This document shows positions 9,795-61,192 of a stretch of DNA of 64,000 nt, piece by piece. The notes beneath the pieces are model-generated. The model was not told where the DNA came from. It did not search any database and worked only from the letters and a program-made list of their open reading frames with translations. Origin of the DNA: Winogradskyella aurantiaca (GTDB lineage Bacteria > Bacteroidota > Bacteroidia > Flavobacteriales > Flavobacteriaceae); assembly GCF_003362725.1 (NCBI RefSeq), contig NZ_QKTV01000001.1:186001-250000 (forward strand), given 5' to 3'. A program made the position numbers and the translations under genes. Each line of letters opens with the position of its first letter. The stretch's first letter is position 1.

Positions 9795-10658
9795 ATGAGG
9801 TTATACCCTATTGAAGCGGGAAATTTTAAGCTAGATGGAGGGGCTATGTTTGGCGTGGTACCCAAGTCGCTTTGGCAAAAAACCAATCCTGCAGATTCCA
9901 ACAACATGATAGATATTGCCGCTCGGTGTTTACTAATTGAGGACGGAGATCGATTAATCTTAATTGATACAGGTATGGGTGACAAACAAAGCGATAAATT
10001 CTTTGGTTATTACTATCTATGGGGAGATGACTCTATTGATAAGAGTCTAAAAAAATATGGTTTCCATAGAGATGATATAACTGATGTGTTTATGACGCAT
10101 TTACATTTTGATCATTGTGGTGGTAGTATCCAGTGGAATCAAGATCGTACCAGTTTAGAGCCAGCTTTCAAAAATGCTCACTTTTGGAGCAATGAAGATC
10201 ACTGGCTATGGGCTACCCAACCAAATAGACGGGAAAAGGCTTCCTTTTTAAAGGAAAACATCATTCCTATGGAGGAATCAAGCCAATTGAATTTTACTGC
10301 TGTCCCTAACGGGGATATTCTCCAAAATTCAAAATTAGGTTTTGACATCTTTTTTGTCAGTGGCCATACGGATAAACAAATGGTGCCTATGATTTCATAT
10401 GAAGGTAAGACCATATGTTTTATGGCAGATCTTTTACCAACTGCTGGTCACTTACCGCTACCATTTGTTATGGGTTATGATACGCGCCCTTTGATAACGC
10501 TCGATGAAAAAGAGCGATTCTTAAATATGGCCGCAGACAATAACTTCTATCTGTTTCTAGAGCATGATGCTCACAATCAAATTATTACTGTACAACATAC
10601 GGAAAAAGGTGTGCGGTTAAAAGACACCTTTACCTGTCAAGAGATATTCAATTTATAA
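9795..10658 (+). CDS. MBL-fold metallo-hydrolase
   Basis: 287 residues, cytoplasmic (no signal peptide). The zinc-binding HxHxDH motif is present as THLHFDHCGG near residue 105. The second His appears in 'FFVSGHTDKQM', an Asp in 'CFMADLLPTAGHL', and a C-terminal 'LFLEHDAHNQII' completes the set. This is the AHL-lactonase/glyoxalase-II-like branch of the metallo-beta-lactamase fold, but the substrate is not assignable. It begins the run 9795-14041 of three same-strand genes; the S8 protease starts six bases after its stop. Confidence 0.88.
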   Translation: MRLYPIEAGNFKLDGGAMFGVVPKSLWQKTNPADSNNMIDIAARCLLIEDGDRLILIDTGMGDKQSDKFFGYYYLWGDDSIDKSLKKYGFHRDDITDVFMTHLHFDHCGGSIQWNQDRTSLEPAFKNAHFWSNEDHWLWATQPNRREKASFLKENIIPMEESSQLNFTAVPNGDILQNSKLGFDIFFVSGHTDKQMVPMISYEGKTICFMADLLPTAGHLPLPFVMGYDTRPLITLDEKERFLNMAADNNFYLFLEHDAHNQIITVQHTEKGVRLKDTFTCQEIFNL

Positions 10659-48774: not shown

Positions 48775-49638
48775 GTGAAAGCAAAGGATAAAAAAGAACG
48801 GAAGTTAGCAGATCGATTACTCAACAAGTATCGTTTGGTTATTCTTAATGAAGACACCTTTGAGGAACGCTTTGCAATTAAGTTGTCTCGGTTAAACGTT
48901 TTTATTCTGTTTTCACTCTCATCTATTACTCTGGTTTTTTTTACCACACTGCTTATTGCTTTTACTCCACTGCGTGAGTACATTCCGGGATATTCGTCTT
49001 CGGCTTTAAAGAAAAAAGCAACAATATTGACTTATAAAACGGATTCCATACAAAGAGAGCTTGAATTAAACGAGCGTTATTTAGCATCAATAAGGAGCGT
49101 ATTAACTGGTGAAATTGAAGAGGTGGATTTTAACCGTGATTCAATAATTAATGCCGCTGCTCAGGATGTTGAGCTTGTTGGCCCTAGTAGATCGGACTCT
49201 ATTTTAAGAGAAAAAGTTAGAAAGGAGGATAAATACAACCTGTTTGCCAACCCGGAGGAGCCTACACGTTTTGTCTTGTTTCCGCCTGTAAAAGGAACCA
49301 TCTCAGACGCCTATAATTTTGAGAATAATCACTTTGCCACTGATGTTGCGGTAACCTTAAATACCCCTATAAAAGCTGTGGCAGATGGTACGGTTATCTT
49401 TAGTGAATGGACTGTTGAAACAGGATATGTGATTATTTTGGCACACGAAGCTGACCTGTTATCCGTTTACAAGCATAACGGATCTTTAACTAAAAGCCAG
49501 GGCGATATAGTAAAATCAGGGGAGGTCATAGCGTTATCCGGTAATTCGGGAGAATATACCACCGGGCCTCACTTACATTTCGAACTTTGGAATAAGGGAT
49601 ACCCACTGAATCCAGAAAATTTTATTGATTTTCAATAG
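48775..49638 (+). CDS. M23-family peptidoglycan metallopeptidase
   Basis: 287 residues from a GTG start. A cytoplasmic basic head and one transmembrane helix (about 40-65) lead to a periplasmic helical region. The LytM/M23 domain starts near 180: 'NNHFATDVAVTLNTPIKAVA' gives the His and Asp ligands (HxxxD) and 'TGPHLHFELWNKGYPLNP' the HxH. It would cleave peptide cross-links of the wall, or act as a degenerate activator; the ligands look intact. It is close upstream of the GH3 gene. Confidence 0.9.
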   Translation: MKAKDKKERKLADRLLNKYRLVILNEDTFEERFAIKLSRLNVFILFSLSSITLVFFTTLLIAFTPLREYIPGYSSSALKKKATILTYKTDSIQRELELNERYLASIRSVLTGEIEEVDFNRDSIINAAAQDVELVGPSRSDSILREKVRKEDKYNLFANPEEPTRFVLFPPVKGTISDAYNFENNHFATDVAVTLNTPIKAVADGTVIFSEWTVETGYVIILAHEADLLSVYKHNGSLTKSQGDIVKSGEVIALSGNSGEYTTGPHLHFELWNKGYPLNPENFIDFQ

Positions 49639-49645
49639 ACAATTT

Positions 49646-51148
49646 ATGCCTTCAATAAAAGCTTTACTAGCCAAACCAGTTGCAAAGCTTGTTAAACGAT
49701 CCATCGATCGATGGGCCTCCAATCCAATTGGAACTCAGAATAAAGTGTTCAAGGAGCTAATAAATTCTGCCAAGACAACTAGTTTTGGGAAAGATCATGA
49801 CTTTTCTGAAATCAGCACTCATGAAGATTTTGTAGCCAGGGTTCCTGTTCGAGATTATGAAGCGTTGCGATCTTATGTGGACCGAATGGTAGATGGTGAA
49901 CCAGATGTTCTCTGGCCGGGTAGACCCTTGTACTATGCTAAAACATCTGGCACAACATCTGGGTCTAAATACATTCCAATTACAAAAGAAAGTATGCCAA
50001 CTCATATAAGTGCTGCTAGAAATGCCATTCTCATGTACATCGCGGAAACAGGCAATTCTCAATTTGTTGATGGTAAAATGATTTTTCTTCAGGGCAGCCC
50101 CGTTATGGGCAAAACTAATGACGTTAACACAGGAAGATTGTCGGGGATCGTGGCACATTATGTGCCTAAATACCTTCAGAGAAACAGGTTGCCTAGTTAT
50201 GAGACCAACTGTATTGAAGACTGGGATACTAAAGTTGATGCAGTAGTGGAGGAGACTATAAATGAGAATATGACCATTATTTCCGGAATTCCACCATGGG
50301 TTCTTGGTTATTTTGAAAAACTGAAGCAACTTTCGGGGAAGTCCATTGGAGATCTGTTTAAAAATTTTAATCTCTTTATTTATGGGGGTGTTAATTACCA
50401 GCCCTATAAAGCAAAATTCGACGAGCTCATTGGGAGATCGGTCGATAGTATTGAACTGTATCCGGCCAGTGAAGGGTTTTTTGCATTTCAGGACAAACAA
50501 AATGACCGTGGAATGTTGCTATTATTAGACTCTGGCATCTTTTACGAGTTTATAAAGGTCGATGCGTTTTTTAATGAGAATCCGAGTCGAATTACCCTTT
50601 CTGAAGTTGAAGTTGGAGTAAATTATGTAATGATTATTTCAACCTCAGCTGGCTTATGGGCTTACAATGTTGGAGATACTATCGCTTTCACGTCTACAAG
50701 TCCCTATAAGGTGATTGTGACTGGGCGAATCAAACATTTTATCTCGGCGTTTGGAGAGCATGTTATAGGCAAGGAGGTTGAAAAAGCTATGGAAGAGGCT
50801 ATAAACCTTCATGGTGGAGTGGTTAATGAATTTACGGTTGCACCACAAGTAAATCCAGAAACGGGACTTCCTTATCATGAGTGGTTTGTGGAATTTGATA
50901 AGCTACCGGTCGATTTATCAAGATTTAATGAGACACTTGATAAATCCTTGCAGGAACAAAATTCTTATTATAAGGATTTAATAGTTGGTCAGATATTAAA
51001 ACCATTAGTTATTACAAAAGTTCGAGTTAATGGTTTTGAACAGTATATGGACTCCAGGGGTAAATTAGGAGGTCAAAATAAAACACCCAGATTGGCTAAC
51101 GATCGAAAGATAGTTGATGAGATGATTGGTCAGAACTTAGTCTTTTAA
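49646..51148 (+). CDS. GH3-family acyl-adenylating enzyme
   Basis: 500 residues from the ATG at 49646 (MPSIKALLAKPVAKLVKR); an in-frame TTG at 49625 is an alternative. The adenylate-binding motif is 'LYYAKTSGTTSGSKYIPIT', with 'ELYPASEGFFAFQD' as second motif and 'VTGRIKHFISAFGEHV' toward the C-terminal lobe. These are the motifs of the GH3 auxin/jasmonate amido-synthetase superfamily, which in plants conjugates amino acids to hormones. In Bacteroidota the GH3 proteins have no assigned substrate. It follows the M23 peptidase by seven bases. Confidence 0.87.
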   Translation: MPSIKALLAKPVAKLVKRSIDRWASNPIGTQNKVFKELINSAKTTSFGKDHDFSEISTHEDFVARVPVRDYEALRSYVDRMVDGEPDVLWPGRPLYYAKTSGTTSGSKYIPITKESMPTHISAARNAILMYIAETGNSQFVDGKMIFLQGSPVMGKTNDVNTGRLSGIVAHYVPKYLQRNRLPSYETNCIEDWDTKVDAVVEETINENMTIISGIPPWVLGYFEKLKQLSGKSIGDLFKNFNLFIYGGVNYQPYKAKFDELIGRSVDSIELYPASEGFFAFQDKQNDRGMLLLLDSGIFYEFIKVDAFFNENPSRITLSEVEVGVNYVMIISTSAGLWAYNVGDTIAFTSTSPYKVIVTGRIKHFISAFGEHVIGKEVEKAMEEAINLHGGVVNEFTVAPQVNPETGLPYHEWFVEFDKLPVDLSRFNETLDKSLQEQNSYYKDLIVGQILKPLVITKVRVNGFEQYMDSRGKLGGQNKTPRLANDRKIVDEMIGQNLVF

Positions 51149-52850: not shown

Positions 52851-53905
52851 TGAGTGACAACAAACCATCAAATTCAGAAAATGAGGAAGTTGATTTAGGC
52901 CAATTGTTTAATGCTATTGGCAAACTTTTTGATAATTTTTTTCTCTTTTTAGGTAAGATTCTCAAAGGCTTATTTGAGGTTGTTATCTACGCTTTGAAAC
53001 CTATTGTCAATAATTTTAAACTAATAACAATAGTTGTTTTAGCTTCTGCAATAATAGGTTATGTTTTTCAGAAACTTGAGACACCCACTTATGAGTCTGA
53101 TATGTTAGTTCGACCATATTTCGAATCTAAATATCAATTAGCCAATAATGTCAATTACTTTAATGCCCTCATAAAAGAACGGAATATTGCAGAATTAAGT
53201 GCCATATTTGAAATTGATTCTGTTGAAGCCATGAATTTAATAGGCTTTGAAATGGCTATTGGACCAGAAACCGCCAATGATCTACTAGTTGAATATGATC
53301 GATATATCAAGTCAATTGATAGTGCTCTAGCTTCGGGTGTAACCTATGATGATTTCATTGATAATCGAGATATTCTTAATGCAAATATATTCTCCATAAC
53401 AGCCCGGGCGACGGTTAACGATGTATTTGTAGGATTAGAGAAGGGGTTCGCAAAGACATTTGAAAATGAGTATTCAAAACGACTAAAAGAAAAAAGGGAT
53501 GACACAATTAACCTTCGTAAAGTCTCACTCGAAAAACAGTTAGAGGAAATTAAAAATCTTCAAGATGTTTACGTAAAGGTAATCGAAAAAGAGTCTGAAA
53601 AACCTGAGGTGAGCATTGGCACAGAAGGAATGTTTCCATTGCAACAAACTAAACGTGAAACCAAAGAATTTGATTTATTACAAAACGAACTTCAGATAAG
53701 ACGCACTATTAATAAACTAGATGAACAGTTGGTTAAGACGGACAGCTATTTCGATATTTTAGCTGGTTTTGAGGAGGTTGGAGCAAGAAGTTCTAATATT
53801 AGAACCAACAAGACGTTTGTTTATCCAGCTATTGTATTTGCGATTTTAGTTTTTTCATTCGTATTTGTTAAATGCTTTGTATTTATTAAAAACTATGGTG
53901 AATAA
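52850..53905 (+). CDS. Wzz-like polysaccharide chain-length regulator
   Basis: 351 residues. The N-terminal helix pair (about 30-75) includes 'LITIVVLASAIIGYVFQ' and the C-terminal helix (about 325-345) 'YPAIVFAILVFSFVFVKCF'. Between them are about 250 residues of coiled coil ('TINLRKVSLEKQLEEIKNLQ'). Two terminal membrane segments with a periplasmic coiled coil is the Wzz/PCP layout. The tyrosine kinase part of PCP-2a proteins is absent. It would control the length of the polysaccharide made by the following genes. The rfbB ATG lies 11 bases inside its end. Confidence 0.82.
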   Translation: MSDNKPSNSENEEVDLGQLFNAIGKLFDNFFLFLGKILKGLFEVVIYALKPIVNNFKLITIVVLASAIIGYVFQKLETPTYESDMLVRPYFESKYQLANNVNYFNALIKERNIAELSAIFEIDSVEAMNLIGFEMAIGPETANDLLVEYDRYIKSIDSALASGVTYDDFIDNRDILNANIFSITARATVNDVFVGLEKGFAKTFENEYSKRLKEKRDDTINLRKVSLEKQLEEIKNLQDVYVKVIEKESEKPEVSIGTEGMFPLQQTKRETKEFDLLQNELQIRRTINKLDEQLVKTDSYFDILAGFEEVGARSSNIRTNKTFVYPAIVFAILVFSFVFVKCFVFIKNYGE

Positions 53906-54944
53906 AAAAGTGCTTATTACAGGGGGTTGCGGCTTTATTGGATCACACGTTGTAAGACTATTTGTTAATAAGTACCCCCAGTACAATATATTTAATCTGG
54001 ATGCGTTAACATATTCAGGAAATCTTGAAAACCTAGTTGATATCGAGAACGCATCTAACTATACATTCTTGAAGAATGATATAAATGATGCAGATTCTAT
54101 AAATCATCTTTTTAAATCTTATAAATTTGATTCGGTTATTCATTTGGCAGCCGAATCTCATGTAGACCGATCTATTTCTGATCCACTGCAATTTGCAAAA
54201 ACCAATATTCTGGGCACCATTAATCTTTTGGATTCTTTTAAGAAGCACGCACAGGGCGAAAACCGTTTATTTTATCACATAAGCACTGATGAGGTGTATG
54301 GAACACTTGGTGAAACGGGTTTGTTTAATGAAACCACATCGTATGACCCACATTCTCCTTATTCTGCTTCTAAGGCTAGTTCAGACCATTTTGTCCGCGC
54401 CTACGGAGACACCTATGGACTTCCCATAGTCATCTCAAATTGCTCTAATAATTATGGTCCCAACCAGTTTCCAGAAAAATTAATACCCCTGTTTATTAAT
54501 AATATCATTAATAGAAAATCTTTGCCTGTATATGGCGATGGCAATTACACTAGAGATTGGCTTTATGTAGTGGACCATGCTAAAGCTATTGATCTAATTT
54601 TTCATAAAGCAGATAGAGGCCAGACCTATAATATAGGTGGTTTTAATGAATGGAAAAATATTGACTTGGTAAATCTTCTTTGTGATCTTATGGACGAGAG
54701 GTTGGGTCGAGAAAAAGGAGAGTCAAGAGCACTAATCACCTATGTAAAGGATCGGCCGGGTCATGATTTGAGGTACGCTATTGATGCATCTAAAATTAAT
54801 AAAGACCTTAACTGGACACCGTCCTTGCAGTTTGAAGAAGGACTGGGTAAAACAATTGACTGGTATTTAAATAATGCAGATTGGCTTGACAATATTACGA
54901 GTGGTGAGTACCAAACATATTATTCGAAACAATACGAAAATTAA
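53895..54944 (+). CDS. rfbB: dTDP-glucose 4,6-dehydratase
   Basis: 349 residues from ATG 53895 (MVNKKVLITGGCGFIGSHVV); an in-frame TTG at 53865 would add 10 residues from inside the previous gene and is unlikely. Extended short-chain dehydrogenase fold: NAD motif GGCGFIGSHVV, 'STDEVYG', catalytic 'YSASKAS' and the dehydratase-specific 'YTRDWLYVVDHAKAIDLIFH'. It makes dTDP-4-keto-6-deoxyglucose, the first committed step to dTDP-L-rhamnose. It is first of the rfbBACD set, in the order B-A-C-D. Confidence 0.97.
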   Translation: MVNKKVLITGGCGFIGSHVVRLFVNKYPQYNIFNLDALTYSGNLENLVDIENASNYTFLKNDINDADSINHLFKSYKFDSVIHLAAESHVDRSISDPLQFAKTNILGTINLLDSFKKHAQGENRLFYHISTDEVYGTLGETGLFNETTSYDPHSPYSASKASSDHFVRAYGDTYGLPIVISNCSNNYGPNQFPEKLIPLFINNIINRKSLPVYGDGNYTRDWLYVVDHAKAIDLIFHKADRGQTYNIGGFNEWKNIDLVNLLCDLMDERLGREKGESRALITYVKDRPGHDLRYAIDASKINKDLNWTPSLQFEEGLGKTIDWYLNNADWLDNITSGEYQTYYSKQYEN

Positions 54945-54947
54945 CAG

Positions 54948-55811
54948 ATGAAAGGGATAATTCTGGCCGGAGGTTCCGGTACACGTTTACATCCAATAAC
55001 ATTGGCAGTAAGTAAACAGTTAATGCCTGTTTATGATAAGCCAATGATATACTACCCATTGTCTACCTTAATGTGGTCGGGAATTAATGAGATTCTTATC
55101 ATTTCAACTCCAAAGGATTTACCACTATTTAAGCAGCTTCTGGGAGATGGGGTTAAATTTGGTTGCCGATTTGAATATGCAGTTCAGGAGCACCCCAATG
55201 GTTTGGCAGAAGCTTTTATTATTGGAGAGGAATTTATAGGGGATGATAAAGTCGCTTTAATTCTTGGGGATAATATTTTTTACGGCTCAGGACTTTCTAA
55301 GAAGCTTCAATCCAATAACAATCCAGAAGGCGGGATTATCTATGCCTATCATGTGCATGATCCCGAGCGCTATGGTGTTGTGGAGTTTGATAACAGTGGC
55401 CAGGTAATTTCAATCGAAGAAAAACCAGATAACCCCAAATCTAATTTTGCGGTGCCTGGAATTTATTTTTACGACAACGACGTTGTTGCTATCGCAAAAA
55501 CCATTGCACCAAGTGCCCGAGGGGAGCTAGAAATAACAGATGTTAATAAGGAGTATTTGAAGCGTGGAAAATTAAAGGTTAGCGTTCTGGATAAGGGAAC
55601 GGCTTGGCTCGATACCGGCACGTTCAACTCATTAATGCAAGCATCGCAATTTGTCCAGGTAATTGAAGAGCGTCAGGGCTTAAAAGTAGGCGCTATCGAG
55701 GAGGTGGCCTATAAGATGAATTATATTAATGCGAACCAGTTAAAGGAATTAATTGATCCACTTCAAAAGAGTGGTTACGGCAAGCACTTATTAAATTTGA
55801 TTACTGAGTAA
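54948..55811 (+). CDS. rfbA: Glucose-1-phosphate thymidylyltransferase
   Basis: 287 residues. The nucleotidyltransferase signature is '[20 protein letters not shown]' at the N-terminus. '[10 protein letters not shown]' and '[19 protein letters not shown]' are conserved, as is '[13 protein letters not shown]'. It joins dTTP and glucose 1-phosphate to give dTDP-glucose and is usually inhibited by dTDP-rhamnose. It follows rfbB by three bases. Confidence 0.97.
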
Positions 55812-56353
55812 TGAAGATTGAGAAGACACCATTGGAGGGAAGCGTTCTTTTTAAACCAAAGGTATTTGAGGATCATAGGGGTTACTTTTTTGAATCATTC
55901 AAGGCTAAAGTTTTAGTTGATAATGGTCTTGATTTTGATTTCGTTCAGGACAATGAATCAAAGTCGCAAAAAGGAGTCCTAAGAGGCTTACATTACCAAA
56001 AAGGGCCTCACGCACAGGCTAAATTAGTTCGTGTAATTGCTGGTAGTGTATTGGATGTAATTGTAGATATGAGACCTGCCTCATCAACCTTTGGAGAGCA
56101 TTTTAAAGTCATCCTTTCTGAACAAAACAAATGGCAATTACTAGTACCTAGAGGTTTTGCGCATGGATTCCTTGTTCTTGAAGACAATACAATCTTTTCA
56201 TACAAATGTGATAATTATTATCATAAAGAATCAGAACGAGGCGTCCTTTTTAGTGATGAGGATTTGAATATTGACTGGGGTATGACTAATGACGCGCTGA
56301 TATTGTCTGAAAAAGACCTACTTCTTCCCAAATTTAAAGATGCGGACATATGA
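55811..56353 (+). CDS. rfbC: dTDP-4-dehydrorhamnose 3,5-epimerase
   Basis: 180 residues, cupin fold. 'VQDNESKSQKGVLRGLHYQK' has the catalytic His, and 'DVIVDMRPASSTFGEHFKVI', 'LVPRGFAHGFLVLED' and 'YKCDNYYHKESERGVLF' are standard. It epimerises C3 and C5 of the keto sugar. Its ATG overlaps the rfbA stop (TAATG). Confidence 0.96.
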   Translation: MKIEKTPLEGSVLFKPKVFEDHRGYFFESFKAKVLVDNGLDFDFVQDNESKSQKGVLRGLHYQKGPHAQAKLVRVIAGSVLDVIVDMRPASSTFGEHFKVILSEQNKWQLLVPRGFAHGFLVLEDNTIFSYKCDNYYHKESERGVLFSDEDLNIDWGMTNDALILSEKDLLLPKFKDADI

Positions 56354-57207
56354 TTCGTGTTTTAGTTACCGGTGCCAATGGACAATTAGGCTCTTGCATT
56401 AAACAGCAATCTTTAGAACATCCGGATATTGTTTTTCATTTTTTAGGATCAAACGAACTTAACATCACTGATCCTGAAAATCTCAGAACTGTATTTTCAA
56501 AACCTTTTGACTATTGTATTAATTGCGCGGCGTATACGCAGGTCGATAATGCTGAGAGCAACAGTCGTCTAGCGCATTCAATAAACGAAAATGGCGTAAA
56601 GGAGTTGGCAAAGCTGTGTCATAAGCATAACGTGGTATTAATCCATATTTCTACCGATTTTGTCTTCGATGGCAAAAAAAGAAGCGCCTATACTGAAACA
56701 GATCATACCAATCCCTTAGGAGTTTACGGGTTAAGCAAGTTAAAAGGAGAGCAAGCTATTGAAAGGTTAATGACGCAGTATTTTATTTTAAGAACTTCTT
56801 GGTTATATAGCGAGCATGGAAATAATTTTGTAAAAACCATGCTAAGACTTGCCAAGGAGCGGGATTCTATATCGGTAGTAAATGATCAATTTGGATCACC
56901 AACGTATGCGATGGATTTAGCCAAAACGATTGTTAAATTAGTCAGCTCTAAATCTGATGCCTACGGTCTCTATCATTATTCAAATCACGGTCAAATATCA
57001 TGGTTTGATTTCGCCTCTAAAGTTTTTGAATTTAAAGGAATCTCAATAAGTTTGAAGCCAATTAAAACAGCGGACTTTCCCACTTTAGCTAAACGTCCTA
57101 AATTTTCGGTTTTAGACACCACTAAAATTCAGGAAAATATAAAGGCTGAGATAAATGATTGGGAGGAGAGTCTACAGTTGGCATTAACAAATATGTATGG
57201 ATCCTAA
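56350..57207 (+). CDS. rfbD: dTDP-4-dehydrorhamnose reductase
   Basis: 285 residues. The dinucleotide motif is 'VLVTGANGQLGSCI'. 'HISTDFVFDGKK' and the catalytic 'YGLSKLKGEQ' give the SDR triad, and 'RTSWLYSEHGNNFVKTMLRL' with 'VVNDQFGSPTYAMDLAKTIV' are typical of RfbD. It reduces the 4-keto group to give dTDP-L-rhamnose. It starts in an ATGA overlap with rfbC and overlaps the cysQ start by 11 bases. Confidence 0.95.
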   Translation: MIRVLVTGANGQLGSCIKQQSLEHPDIVFHFLGSNELNITDPENLRTVFSKPFDYCINCAAYTQVDNAESNSRLAHSINENGVKELAKLCHKHNVVLIHISTDFVFDGKKRSAYTETDHTNPLGVYGLSKLKGEQAIERLMTQYFILRTSWLYSEHGNNFVKTMLRLAKERDSISVVNDQFGSPTYAMDLAKTIVKLVSSKSDAYGLYHYSNHGQISWFDFASKVFEFKGISISLKPIKTADFPTLAKRPKFSVLDTTKIQENIKAEINDWEESLQLALTNMYGS

Positions 57208-57997
57208 TATAATAATAGCTGCCGAAGCCGCCATAAAGGCCGGTGAGGCTATAATGGCTATTTATGAGTCCGATTTTAGTGTTGAGCTAAAAGATGACAA
57301 GTCCCCACTAACCTTAGCTGATCAAGAGGCTAATACCATTATTAATCGTATTCTTAACAAGACTAATATCCCCATCATTAGTGAAGAGAATAAAGAAATC
57401 GACTATCAAATAAGACGCCAATGGTCCGAAGTTTGGATTGTTGATCCGTTGGATGGCACCAAAGAATTTATAAAAAGAAATGGTGAGTTTACAGTTAATA
57501 TCGCCTTAGTTGTTGATGGGAAGCCGCAACAGGGGATTATTTACGTTCCTGTTACCAGAACACTTTACATTGGTGATGTTCTAAATATGAAAGCAGTTAG
57601 GATCGTTACCGATGGATTTACGGCTATAACAAAGGACGATTTAAATGGCGCTGAGATTTTAAGCTCTAGATCGAATGACATTGATAATTGCCGTGTTGTG
57701 GGTAGCAGATCCCATATGAATGAGGATACAAGCACTTTTATAGAGACTATAAAATCAACAGGCAAAAAAGTGGAAATTGTTTCAAAAGGGAGTTCTCTTA
57801 AGTTTTGTATCGTAGCGGAAGGAAAAGCTGACGTTTATCCAAGATTTGCCCCTACAATGGAATGGGATACTGCTGCAGGCCAGGCAATTTGTGAGGCTGT
57901 TGGAATTTCAGTTATTTCTAAGTTAACAGGAGAACCCATGCAATACAATAAAGAAAATCTGTTAAACCCCTACTTTCTAGTTGGAAATCCTCTATGA
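57197..57997 (+). CDS. cysQ: 3'(2'),5'-bisphosphate nucleotidase CysQ
   Basis: 266 residues of the inositol-monophosphatase superfamily. The metal motif is 'VDPLDGTKEF' with 'PIISEENKEI' upstream and 'EWDTAAGQAICEA' downstream, as in CysQ. It removes the 3'-phosphate of PAP, the by-product left when sulfotransferases use PAPS, or hydrolyses PAPS itself. Its position between dTDP-rhamnose and sulfate-activation genes fits clearance of PAP made during sulfation. It overlaps rfbD and the DUF2061 start (ATGA). Confidence 0.95.
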   Translation: MDPNIIIAAEAAIKAGEAIMAIYESDFSVELKDDKSPLTLADQEANTIINRILNKTNIPIISEENKEIDYQIRRQWSEVWIVDPLDGTKEFIKRNGEFTVNIALVVDGKPQQGIIYVPVTRTLYIGDVLNMKAVRIVTDGFTAITKDDLNGAEILSSRSNDIDNCRVVGSRSHMNEDTSTFIETIKSTGKKVEIVSKGSSLKFCIVAEGKADVYPRFAPTMEWDTAAGQAICEAVGISVISKLTGEPMQYNKENLLNPYFLVGNPL

Positions 57998-58422
57998 GCG
58001 ATCATTCTCAGAAACGACATTTAGCTAAAACCATTACATGGAGAATAGTGGGAACTTTAGACACGATTATTCTATCATGGTTAATTTCAGGGAATCCTAC
58101 TATTGGCCTAAAGGTTGGATTAGCTGAGGTTCTAACAAAAATGGTCCTTTATTATATGCATGAACGCATATGGTTTAAAGTTAACCTGAATAAAGATGGG
58201 GTCATTTTGGAAAGTAGAAAGCGCCATTTGGCCAAAACCTTTACCTGGCGAACCATTGGAACGCTCGACACTATGTTATTGGCTTGGCTGATTTCTGGTG
58301 ACCCTGTGATGGGCTTTCAAATTGGACTATTTGAGGTAATAACTAAAATGATTTTGTACTACCTGCATGAAAGAGCATGGTATAAGGTTAATTTTGGACT
58401 GGAAAAGAGATCTAGCAGATAG
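57994..58422 (+). CDS. Membrane protein with two tandem DUF2061 repeats
   Basis: 142 residues made of two near-copies. Repeat 1 (about 7-66) begins KRHLAKTITWRIVGTLDTII and ends YYMHERIWFKVN; repeat 2 (about 75-133) begins KRHLAKTFTWRTIGTLDTML and ends YYLHERAWYKVN. Each repeat has a basic start, two hydrophobic helices and a conserved HER. The whole would have about four transmembrane helices. DUF2061 has no established function, but it recurs next to sulfate-activation genes in Bacteroidota. It starts in an ATGA overlap with cysQ, four bases before cysC, so it is locked into the PAPS operon. A sulfate or metabolite permease role is a guess. Confidence 0.85.
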   Translation: MSDHSQKRHLAKTITWRIVGTLDTIILSWLISGNPTIGLKVGLAEVLTKMVLYYMHERIWFKVNLNKDGVILESRKRHLAKTFTWRTIGTLDTMLLAWLISGDPVMGFQIGLFEVITKMILYYLHERAWYKVNFGLEKRSSR

Positions 58423-58426
58423 CATC

Positions 58427-59029
58427 ATGGAAGACAATATTTTTAGGCAGGGATACAAAATCTCAAAAATGCAAAGGACATCAAGGAATAAGCATAATGC
58501 ATTTCTAATTTGGTTTACCGGATTATCAGGTTCTGGCAAGTCAACCCTGGCGAATCAACTCGAGTTGTTGCTTCATAATAAAGGCGTTTCCACCTACACT
58601 CTAGATGGGGATAATATTCGAATGGGATTAAATAAAGACCTATCGTTTACGGCAGCGGATCGTTCTGAGAATATTCGCAGAATTGCTGAGGTTGCCAATT
58701 TGATGGTAGACGCTGGACTTGTTGTACTTGCGGCTTTTGTATCTCCATTTAAAAAGGATCGTCAGAATATAAGAGAAGTTGTTAAAGGAGTTAACTTTGT
58801 TGAGGTTTTTGTAAACACCTCAATTGAAGCATGTGAGCAGAGAGATGTTAAGGGCTTATACAAGAAAGCAAGAAGCGGCGAAATCAAGAATTTCACTGGA
58901 ATAGATTCGCCCTACGAAGTTCCTGAAACCCCAGATATTGAGGTGACAACTGAAAACCTTACGATTGAAGAATCGGTAGAATTAATATACAATCACATAA
59001 AACCAAAATTATTTTCGGATTATGAGTAA
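58427..59029 (+). CDS. cysC: Adenylyl-sulfate kinase
   Basis: 200 residues from ATG 58427 (MEDNIFRQGYKISKMQRTSR); an upstream ATG at 58367 lies inside the DUF2061 gene and is rejected. The P-loop is 'WFTGLSGSGKSTLANQLELL', then 'DGDNIRMGLNKDLSFTAADR' and 'FVSPFKKDRQNIREVV', all CysC signatures. It phosphorylates APS to PAPS, the universal sulfate donor. It overlaps the cysD start by eight bases. Confidence 0.97.
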   Translation: MEDNIFRQGYKISKMQRTSRNKHNAFLIWFTGLSGSGKSTLANQLELLLHNKGVSTYTLDGDNIRMGLNKDLSFTAADRSENIRRIAEVANLMVDAGLVVLAAFVSPFKKDRQNIREVVKGVNFVEVFVNTSIEACEQRDVKGLYKKARSGEIKNFTGIDSPYEVPETPDIEVTTENLTIEESVELIYNHIKPKLFSDYE

Positions 59030-59927
59030 GTATTACTTGAATTATTTGGATGAATTGGAAAGTGAAGCCATTTATGTGCTAAGAGAGGTGGCTGCACAAT
59101 TTCAAAATCCGGTTATTTTGTTTTCCGGTGGTAAAGATTCTATTGTAGTCACTCACCTTGCTAAAAAAGCATTTTACCCAGCTAAAATACCTTTTCCCTT
59201 AATGCATGTTGATACTGGGCATAATTTTCCAGAGACGATAGCATTTAGAGATAATATTATAAATGAACTCGGGGCTCAGCTGATAGTGGGCTCAGTACAG
59301 GATTCGATTGACAATGGTCGTGTGGCTGAAGAAAGAGGTAAGAATGCTACAAGAAATGCTCTTCAAATAACCACACTCTTAGATGCTATTGAGGAAAACT
59401 CGATAGATTGCGCCATTGGTGGAGGTCGAAGGGACGAAGAGAAGGCGAGGGCTAAAGAACGCTTTTTTTCTCATAGAGATGATTTTGGTCAATGGGATCC
59501 AAAGAACCAAAGACCAGAACTTTGGAACTTGTTTAATGGGAAACATTTTGAAGGGGAGCATTTTAGGGCTTTTCCTATTAGTAATTGGACAGAAATGGAT
59601 GTTTGGAATTACATCAATAGAGAAAATATTTCAATTCCCTCCTTGTATTTTGCGCATGAGAGAGAAGTAGTTTGGAGGCAGAATTCATGGATTCCTAATT
59701 CTGAGTTTCTCAAACTTGATGAGGATGAAGAAGTGGTACTTAAAAAAGTGAGGTTTAGAACTTTAGGCGATATTACGATAACCGGGGGTATTGAGTCAGA
59801 CGCTGATACTGTAGAAAAAATTGCGTTAGAGGTTTCTGGAATGAGACAGACGGAGAGAGGCAACAGAAGTGATGATAAGAGATCTGAATCAGCAATGGAA
59901 GATCGCAAAAGACAAGGTTATTTTTAA
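59022..59927 (+). CDS. cysD: Sulfate adenylyltransferase subunit 2
   Basis: 301 residues. The PP-loop is 'LFSGGKDSIVVTHLAKKAF', followed by 'LMHVDTGHNFPETIAFRDNI' and the C-terminal 'GRRDEEKARAKERFFSHRD'. This is the ATP pyrophosphatase-type catalytic subunit of ATP sulfurylase. It pairs with the CysN GTPase immediately downstream (11 bases apart) and overlaps cysC upstream. Confidence 0.97.
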   Translation: MSKYYLNYLDELESEAIYVLREVAAQFQNPVILFSGGKDSIVVTHLAKKAFYPAKIPFPLMHVDTGHNFPETIAFRDNIINELGAQLIVGSVQDSIDNGRVAEERGKNATRNALQITTLLDAIEENSIDCAIGGGRRDEEKARAKERFFSHRDDFGQWDPKNQRPELWNLFNGKHFEGEHFRAFPISNWTEMDVWNYINRENISIPSLYFAHEREVVWRQNSWIPNSEFLKLDEDEEVVLKKVRFRTLGDITITGGIESDADTVEKIALEVSGMRQTERGNRSDDKRSESAMEDRKRQGYF

Positions 59928-59938
59928 TAGAAAAACGT

Positions 59939-61192
59939 ATGTTAGATAACAACCAATTGTTAAGGTTTACAACTGCGGGGAGCGTAGACGATGGGAAAAG
60001 TACTTTAATTGGAAGATTGCTTTATGATTCAAAATCGATATTTGAAGACCAACTTGCAGCAATAGAAAAAACCAGTAAGAAAAAAGGGCATGACGGTGTA
60101 GATTTAGCCTTATTTACCGATGGGTTACGTGATGAAAGAGAACAGGGGATAACTATCGACGTGGCATACAGGTATTTTACAACACCTAAAAGAAAATTTA
60201 TTATTGCAGATACCCCGGGCCATATTCAGTATACCAGAAATATGGTCACAGGTGCTTCAACGGCTAATGCAGCCATTATTCTGGTCGATGCAAGACATGG
60301 TGTGATCGAACAAACTAAAAGACATTCGTTTATAGCTTCATTGCTTCAAATCCCCCATATCATAGTTTGCATTAATAAAATGGACCTTGTTGATTTTAGT
60401 GAAGCTGCATATAATGAGGTTATTGAGCAGTTTGAAGAGTTTTCGTCAAAACTTTTAGTTAAAGACGTTCGGTTTATCCCTTTAAGTGCTTTAAATGGTG
60501 ATAATGTCGTTAACAGATCTGATAATATGGAATGGTATCAAGGCGCGCCCCTGCTTCATACCTTAGAAACGCTGCACATTAGTAGTGACATTAATAAGAT
60601 TGACGCAAGATTTCCTGTGCAAACTGTATTAAGACCCCAGAGTGAATCTCACAGAGACTATAGGGGGTATGCTGGACGTATCGCAAGTGGTGTTCTTAGA
60701 GTAGGAGACGAGGTAACAGCCATGCCTTCTGGCTTCACTTCTTCTATCAAGTCAATTCATAGTTTTACAACGGATTTGAAAGAAGCCTATGCGCCCATGT
60801 CGGTTTCGATCACGTTAAATGATGATATTGATATTAGTAGAGGCGATATGATTGTTAGAACTAATAATCAACCCGAAGCCTCTCAGGACCTCGAGGTTAT
60901 GCTTTGTTGGCTTAATAACGATGAGGCAAAGCCTAGAGCCAAGTATTTGATACGGCATACCTCTAATGAAGAAAAAGCGATGATCAAAGAGGTGGTGTAT
61001 AAAATTGATATTGAAACATTAGACAGAAACTTCGAAGACAAATCATTAAAAATGAATGATATCTGTAGAGTAAAAATTAGAACGACAAAGCCATTAATGG
61101 TTGATTCTTACAGAGACAACCGATCTACCGGGAGTATTATTCTTGTTGATGATATGACCAATGAGACTGTGGCGGCTGGTATGATTGTTTGA
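59939..61192 (+). CDS. cysN: Sulfate adenylyltransferase subunit 1 (CysN GTPase)
   Basis: 417 residues. Translation-factor GTPase motifs: G1 'GSVDDGKSTLIGRLLYDS', 'EREQGITIDVAYRYF', 'DTPGHIQYTRN' and 'NKMDLVDFSE'. EF-Tu-like beta barrels follow ('FPVQTVLRPQSESHRDYRGY'). GTP hydrolysis drives the unfavourable ATP sulfurylase reaction carried out with CysD. It is shorter than E. coli CysN (475), as in other Bacteroidota. No APS kinase is fused; it is encoded separately as cysC. Confidence 0.97.
   Translation: MLDNNQLLRFTTAGSVDDGKSTLIGRLLYDSKSIFEDQLAAIEKTSKKKGHDGVDLALFTDGLRDEREQGITIDVAYRYFTTPKRKFIIADTPGHIQYTRNMVTGASTANAAIILVDARHGVIEQTKRHSFIASLLQIPHIIVCINKMDLVDFSEAAYNEVIEQFEEFSSKLLVKDVRFIPLSALNGDNVVNRSDNMEWYQGAPLLHTLETLHISSDINKIDARFPVQTVLRPQSESHRDYRGYAGRIASGVLRVGDEVTAMPSGFTSSIKSIHSFTTDLKEAYAPMSVSITLNDDIDISRGDMIVRTNNQPEASQDLEVMLCWLNNDEAKPRAKYLIRHTSNEEKAMIKEVVYKIDIETLDRNFEDKSLKMNDICRVKIRTTKPLMVDSYRDNRSTGSIILVDDMTNETVAAGMIV

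Follow-up and report, generated by a model that had tools for sequence, protein, structure and literature searches.

A tandem DUF2061 gene lies within a cys operon

The window (the whole stretch of 64,000 nucleotides that was analyzed) contains an operon with the gene order cysQ-DUF2061-cysC-cysD-cysN (Table 1). As originally predicted, the DUF2061 gene overlaps the 3' end of cysQ by four bases and is followed, after four bases, by the start of cysC. PF09834 is the sole Pfam family matched by the encoded protein, which it covers in two segments (E 4.2e-44; score 149 bits, cut-off 23.1). We found a single DUF2061 gene and one CysD match in this genome, together with a second PAPS_reduct protein, encoded elsewhere, that is cysH-like and may be CysH. 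With dTDP-sugar genes immediately upstream and a cytidylyltransferase gene 3' of the operon (past one gene without a Pfam match), the operon appears to sit in a surface-polysaccharide locus. Upstream of the polysaccharide genes the window also encodes a GH3-family protein (49625-51148; PF03321, PF23571 and PF23572), a member of a family known chiefly for plant hormone conjugation. That the operon itself lacks a sulfate permease, as had been noted originally, holds; candidate permeases are present elsewhere in the genome, with matches to SulP, Na_sulph_symp, CitMHS and TauE.

Table 1. Features of the DUF2061 operon and its 5' flank, in window coordinates
Feature	Position	Strand	Basis or remark
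Four dTDP-sugar genes immediately 5' (dehydratase-like, nucleotidyl transferase, dTDP_sugar_isom, RmlD)	53865..57207	+	start of first gene uncertain
cysQ, 3'(2'),5'-bisphosphate nucleotidase	57197..57997	+	TIGR01331 above cut-off
Tandem DUF2061 gene, 142 aa	57994..58422	+	ORF with ATG start; PF09834 match
Repeat 1, two-helix hairpin, residues 7-66	58012..58191	+	
Repeat 2, two-helix hairpin, residues 76-135	58219..58398	+	
cysC, APS kinase	58427..59029	+	PF01583 and TIGR00455
cysD, ATP sulfurylase small subunit	59022..59927	+	TIGR02039 above cut-off
cysN, ATP sulfurylase large subunit	59939..61192	+	TIGR02034 above cut-off

The protein comprises two homologous repeats, each a predicted hairpin

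The two repeats are identical at 40 of 60 residues and 118 of 180 bases, against a maximum of 13 of 60 identical residues in 1000 shuffles of the window protein. Judged by sequence they are clearly homologous, although near-identical, as they were first described, is too strong a term. AlphaFold2 predicts four helices (residues 3-32, 35-64, 75-101 and 104-131; mean pLDDT 86, pTM 0.74), in agreement with the original proposal of two helices per repeat and four in a single chain. Among 13 tandem relatives, the repeats within one protein are on average ~65% alike, whereas the equivalent repeats of different species are 72-73% alike, indicating that the duplication predates most of those species. 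In a comparison of three relatives with a single repeat, each proved closer to repeat 2 than to repeat 1. Sulfur operons often carry such single-repeat forms, which makes the duplication dispensable. Away from cys genes, Pseudomonadota have tandem DUF2061 genes as well (L157, L162, L176, L177, L180, L189, L194, L197, L199 and L212; L210, L217, L223, L224 and L228), with repeat spacings of ~190 and ~310-330 bases, and the domain appears to have been duplicated on more than one occasion. Across 22 aligned DUF2061 units, the residues R, K, R, Y, H, E, R and W are invariant.

Neither sequence nor structure comparison placed the protein in an established transporter family. Neither the window protein nor any of 22 relatives matched a second Pfam family above cut-off, and TSUP/TauE-SafE (PF01925), SulP (PF00916), DASS (PF00939) and CitMHS (PF03600) were matched neither by the window protein nor, at E <= 10, by these relatives. 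PiT/CysP (PHO4, PF01384) was likewise unmatched by the window protein, and the one hit among the 22 relatives (E 0.089) was judged to be chance. Kinship with GtrA-type flippases, suggested by the motif pattern, was discarded, as none of the 22 relatives matched GtrA at E <= 10. By sequence, no solved relative was found, the best hit (ribosomal protein L19, E 0.66) being judged chance. When the model of the window protein was searched against the PDB there was no match at E <= 0.001, and no transporter fold was matched; the best VIA Z, 5.4, may reflect merely a common helical arrangement. No CysZ chain was among the PDB matches listed, which leaves room for a shared fold. In BFVD, the top two structural matches were DUF2061 phage proteins (E 2.7e-5 and 1.4e-3; TM 0.77 and 0.78 over the query).

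Linkage to sulfur genes is a property of one DUF2061 subfamily

A search with the window protein, which is biased toward close relatives, gave 33 loci, 26 of which are sulfur-linked as judged by reading their neighborhoods; the unlinked loci are L016, L020, L024, L026, L029, L030 and L035, and contig ends cut several. A census of DUF2061 beside cys genes, as suggested with the original prediction, gave opposite pictures in two phyla. DUF2061 is present in 31 of 296 Bacteroidota genomes, and in 22 of the 31 it is fused to, or lies within 3 kb of, cysC, cysD, cysH or cysN; six of the nine unlinked genomes carry a distinct sequence type around 'SNIYT'. In Pseudomonadota, where 91 of 398 genomes have the domain, it lies mostly away from sulfur genes, the outcome named with the original prediction as one that would refute it: only two of 97 fetched loci have cys genes within 6 kb (L230 and L241; the domain itself was recovered again in 95 of the loci). 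We therefore reject a sulfur role for the whole family.

Linkage instead follows a sequence motif. Domains with the [WY]R motif are sulfur-linked in 65 of 94 cases and those lacking it in 1 of 98, in counts that include both repeats of tandem proteins, a few duplicate loci and a few hand-set labels. Within Pseudomonadota the motif-bearing type is mostly unlinked (1 of 12 loci linked, by hand count), and the domain tree, built from few columns, is poorly resolved. Most Pseudomonadota members share with the window type the two-helix domain, the C-terminal HE[RK]-x-W and, in some, tandem copies, but differ from it in lacking the [ST][WY]R motif and in lying away from cys genes. The sulfur role that was first proposed for DUF2061 in general is therefore supported, by operons, fusions and permease exclusion (see below), as one confined to this subfamily.

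The same counts bear on the idea that DUF2061 is a general small membrane protein, concerned for example with iron or membrane quality, that hitch-hikes in cys operons. Such a role would accommodate the 95 of 97 Pseudomonadota loci that are not near cys genes, as well as the appearance of DUF2061 genes (Caulobacter CC_0155 and Shewanella SO_4740) in the iron-responsive gene tables of two papers (PMC3751524, PMC12442407). We nonetheless regard it as improbable: linkage across several phyla, in varied gene orders and with repeated fusion to two enzymes, would be unexpected of a hitch-hiker, as would the near restriction of linkage to one sequence type. In the titles and abstract openings of the literature on DUF2061, COG3205 and PF09834 there was no tie to sulfur or transport.

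DUF2061 occurs in PAPS, reductive and nod contexts

Sulfur-linked DUF2061 genes are found in two main kinds of operon. In the PAPS type, which is often located within polysaccharide loci (L003-L013, L086, L099), a tandem gene stands in the order cysQ-DUF2061-cysC-cysD-cysN, as in the window; a sulfotransferase gene lies close to the L003 operon. In the reductive type (e.g. L069-L071, L074 and L076), a single unit stands in the order Rrf2-DUF2061-cysH-cysD-cysN, followed by sulfite reductase and siroheme genes. MED-G20 genomes have one DUF2061 unit ahead of cysQ. A further arrangement, sulfotransferase-DUF2061-cysD-cysN, is found in two Mesorhizobium strains inside the nod cluster of a symbiosis plasmid, where the cysN product includes a CysC-like part; there are three more DUF2061 matches in Mesorhizobium. 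Of seven plasmid loci that were opened, six are sulfur-linked and one, in Bradyrhizobium, is not. Since DUF2061 occurs in operons with cysH and in operons with cysC, the substrate common to these contexts, the nod cluster included, would be sulfate. At two further loci (L091 and L092) a single DUF2061 gene comes, by eye, right after a UDP-sugar dehydrogenase-like gene, with cysD ~14-27 kb away on the same contig.

Phage genomes provide another setting. A CysC tblastn match is present in three of 15 viral loci, and on the viral contigs L256 (6022-7011) and L259 (5589-6207) DUF2061 overlaps or touches a P-loop kinase that matches APS_kinase (E 4e-5 and 1e-8, respectively), making these neighbors putative APS kinases. 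The L256 kinase is joined to a cytidylyltransferase-like part; on the same contig, the ORF preceding DUF2061 has no match and another ORF (9929-10552) falls below the Sulfotransfer_2 cut-off.

DUF2061 is fused to CysC or CysN in several lineages

Although DUF2061 is unfused in the window, relatives carry it in one open frame with the enzymes of sulfate activation. DUF2061::CysC occurs at three loci in two phyla, namely L014 (Cyclobacteriaceae), L090 (another Bacteroidota family) and L355 (Gemmatirosa, in the order cysQ, DUF2061::cysC, cysD). CysN::DUF2061 occurs at three Microvirga plasmid loci from two organisms (L067, L353 and L354), and in the pseudomonadotal L241 a 557-residue protein joins CysN (39-452) to a divergent DUF2061 (489-545). 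Because the fused enzymes, CysN and CysC, work in the cytosol, the DUF2061 hairpin should have its two ends there as well, which fits the basic residues at either end.

These fusions would be explained equally well if DUF2061 were an anchor or scaffold that carried no sulfate itself but tethered CysC, CysD and CysN to the membrane, next to a SulP or SLC13 permease whose gene lies elsewhere. This is the main rival to a permease, and holding the enzymes at the membrane was also among the original suggestions; besides the fusions, it gains from there being just two helices per unit and from the wide occurrence of SulP, which is present in 265 of 296 Bacteroidota genomes and in 20 of the 22 sulfur-linked ones. 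We rank it below transport and consider it unlikely, given that many DUF2061 genes lie away from any such enzyme, that the invariant charged residues are probably more than a plain anchor requires, and that an anchor leaves unexplained the absence of TauE and SLC13-type permeases from DUF2061 operons. SulP is missing from G140 and G188 and is weak in G074 (7e-5; one of the 20), and each of these three genomes encodes CitMHS and TauE proteins elsewhere, so that we found no genome in which DUF2061 could be the sole sulfate permease. The sulfate-binding protein TIGR00971 was absent from all four genomes tested.

No TauE or SLC13-type permease was found in DUF2061 operons

CysD matches are present in 156 of the 296 Bacteroidota genomes, 106 of them exceeding the cut-off, and we compared DUF2061 loci with 53 cysD regions from genomes that have CysD and lack DUF2061, a non-random set picked to span families and later extended to extra genera. 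Permease families were set by Pfam on nine representatives and otherwise by profiles derived from the DUF2061-less regions themselves. Of these 53 regions, 38 have a TauE/TSUP or CitMHS/SLC13-type permease no more than 3 kb from the cys genes (28 of the first 40 and 10 of the 13 added), compared with none of 22 DUF2061-bearing regions and none of 27 further named DUF2061 loci with cys anchors, 19 of which have DUF2061 within 3 kb. Fifteen of the 53 have neither DUF2061 nor a permease, and in DUF2061-positive genomes seven cysD loci away from DUF2061 also all lack one; an operon-encoded permease is thus not obligatory.

Because the profiles came from the DUF2061-less set, we separately scanned the 22 and 27 DUF2061 regions for hidden permeases, taking ORFs of at least 150 residues with at least four hydrophobic segments within 3 kb of the cys genes. 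None of the resulting 17 ORFs (3 and 14), all Pfam-scanned, belongs to a known sulfate-permease family. They comprise polysaccharide flippases (one with a MatE match below cut-off), cation efflux, SNF, cytochrome-c assembly, Lnt and FeoB proteins and one MFS protein; the last, unassigned and on the opposite strand at L028, is the only one that could qualify as an anion permease.

Fisher tests give p = 1.7e-8 for 28/40 versus 0/22 and p = 1.8e-9 for 38/53 versus 0/22, but in rows that are related to one another. In a 71-row CysD tree (40 DUF2061-less regions, being the first set, plus 19 DUF2061 regions and 12 named loci), DUF2061 state changes seven times, four of these changes being forced by well-supported branches, and a paired test finds ~2.8 opposite changes and none in the same direction (p 0.25). 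The exclusion is therefore consistent but not independently significant. Its most telling case falls within one genus code, where in the order Rrf2-X-cysH-cysD-cysN the position X is occupied by TauE (L295, L296) or by DUF2061 (L079, L081), although the CysD proteins of the two pairs are not sisters. In a separate observation, a TauE domain is joined in one ORF to the NAD-binding half of siroheme synthase at L303 (7700-9310, by Pfam) and, by cluster and length, at L307, L308 and L313.

As TauE/SafE is a sulfite exporter by its Pfam name, its use of the equivalent slot in reductive operons raises the alternative that DUF2061 substitutes for it in the export or leakage of sulfite or another by-product. 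We think this very improbable, as PAPS- and Nod-type operons have DUF2061 and produce no sulfite, and the alternative permease in PAPS-type operons is of the SLC13 type.

A candidate minimal sulfate permease

The permease-like slot, the charged residues at or near the cytosolic helix ends and the fusions to the first sulfate-using enzymes are most simply explained by an oligomeric sulfate permease. Of the roles first proposed for DUF2061, moving sulfate is thus the best reading; from gene context, we give about an even chance to this subfamily being a minimal oligomeric permease that serves the sulfate-activating enzymes. In such a scheme each unit would form a two-helix membrane hairpin with both termini in the cytosol, and several units, two of them supplied per chain by a tandem gene, would pack side by side in one orientation to make a pore or carrier. 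Sulfate would cross a cytosolic mouth lined with the invariant basic and polar residues, in the motifs R-x3-K-x3/4-[WY]-R at the start and Y-[YF]-x-H-E-R-x-W at the end, and be consumed at once by CysD/CysN and CysC. In the window, the PAPS produced may serve sulfation of the adjacent surface polysaccharide, reduction, or both. We infer transport, oligomeric state, orientation and direct hand-over alike.

By our estimate, a potential of -120 mV would at equilibrium keep a divalent anion ~10,000-fold more dilute in the cell than in the medium, so entry would require either that coupled CysDN/CysC activate the sulfate immediately or that the charged residues provide ion coupling; seawater sulfate is given as ~28 mM (PMC5840216). 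In its widest form the proposal is of an unrecognized sulfate-transport family, among the smallest, in which units of ~60-70 residues and two helices form an oligomeric pore coupled, sometimes covalently, to ATP sulfurylase or APS kinase so that entry and activation are one vectorial step, and which stands in for TSUP/SLC13-type permeases in the sulfate operons of several lineages and serves Nod-factor sulfation and possibly some phages. That wider claim we hold tentatively, as a doubtful one.

Outside a handful of model species, little is known of how sulfate enters most bacteria, and a survey of sulfate reducers states, in its available text, that further transporter families may remain uncharacterized (PMC5840216). 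New here are the one-frame fusions, the arrangement in the Mesorhizobium nod cluster and the exclusion between DUF2061 and other permeases. If correct, the permease reading would assign a function to one subfamily of an uncharacterized Pfam family, improve the annotation of sulfated-polysaccharide loci in marine Bacteroidota, and provide a simple setting in which to study the entry of a divalent anion into a cell with a negative interior, in particular whether activation pulls sulfate in.

Comparison with known sulfate permeases

Three known systems resemble the proposed permease in part. The SLC13/DASS-type permeases with TrkA_C domains adjoin cysQ, cysC or cysD in PAPS-type operons that lack DUF2061, but are proteins of ~600 residues with 7-12 hydrophobic segments, unrelated to DUF2061 in sequence. 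CysZ of Corynebacterium glutamicum (TSUP/DUF81/TauE-SafE, PF01925), a membrane protein of the cysHDN operon described in the available text as required for growth below 5 mM sulfate and as a proposed sulfate permease (PMC1266029), is a precedent for a membrane protein in a cys operon, and TauE fills the equivalent slot in Bacteroidota; with 309 residues and six predicted helices, it has no sequence match to DUF2061. The E. coli-type CysZ of Gammaproteobacteria, described as an oligomeric sulfate permease with a fold of its own that forms a dual-topology hexamer (PMC5967866), is the precedent for oligomeric assembly and a private fold, whereas the fusions suggest that DUF2061 adopts a single orientation in the membrane.
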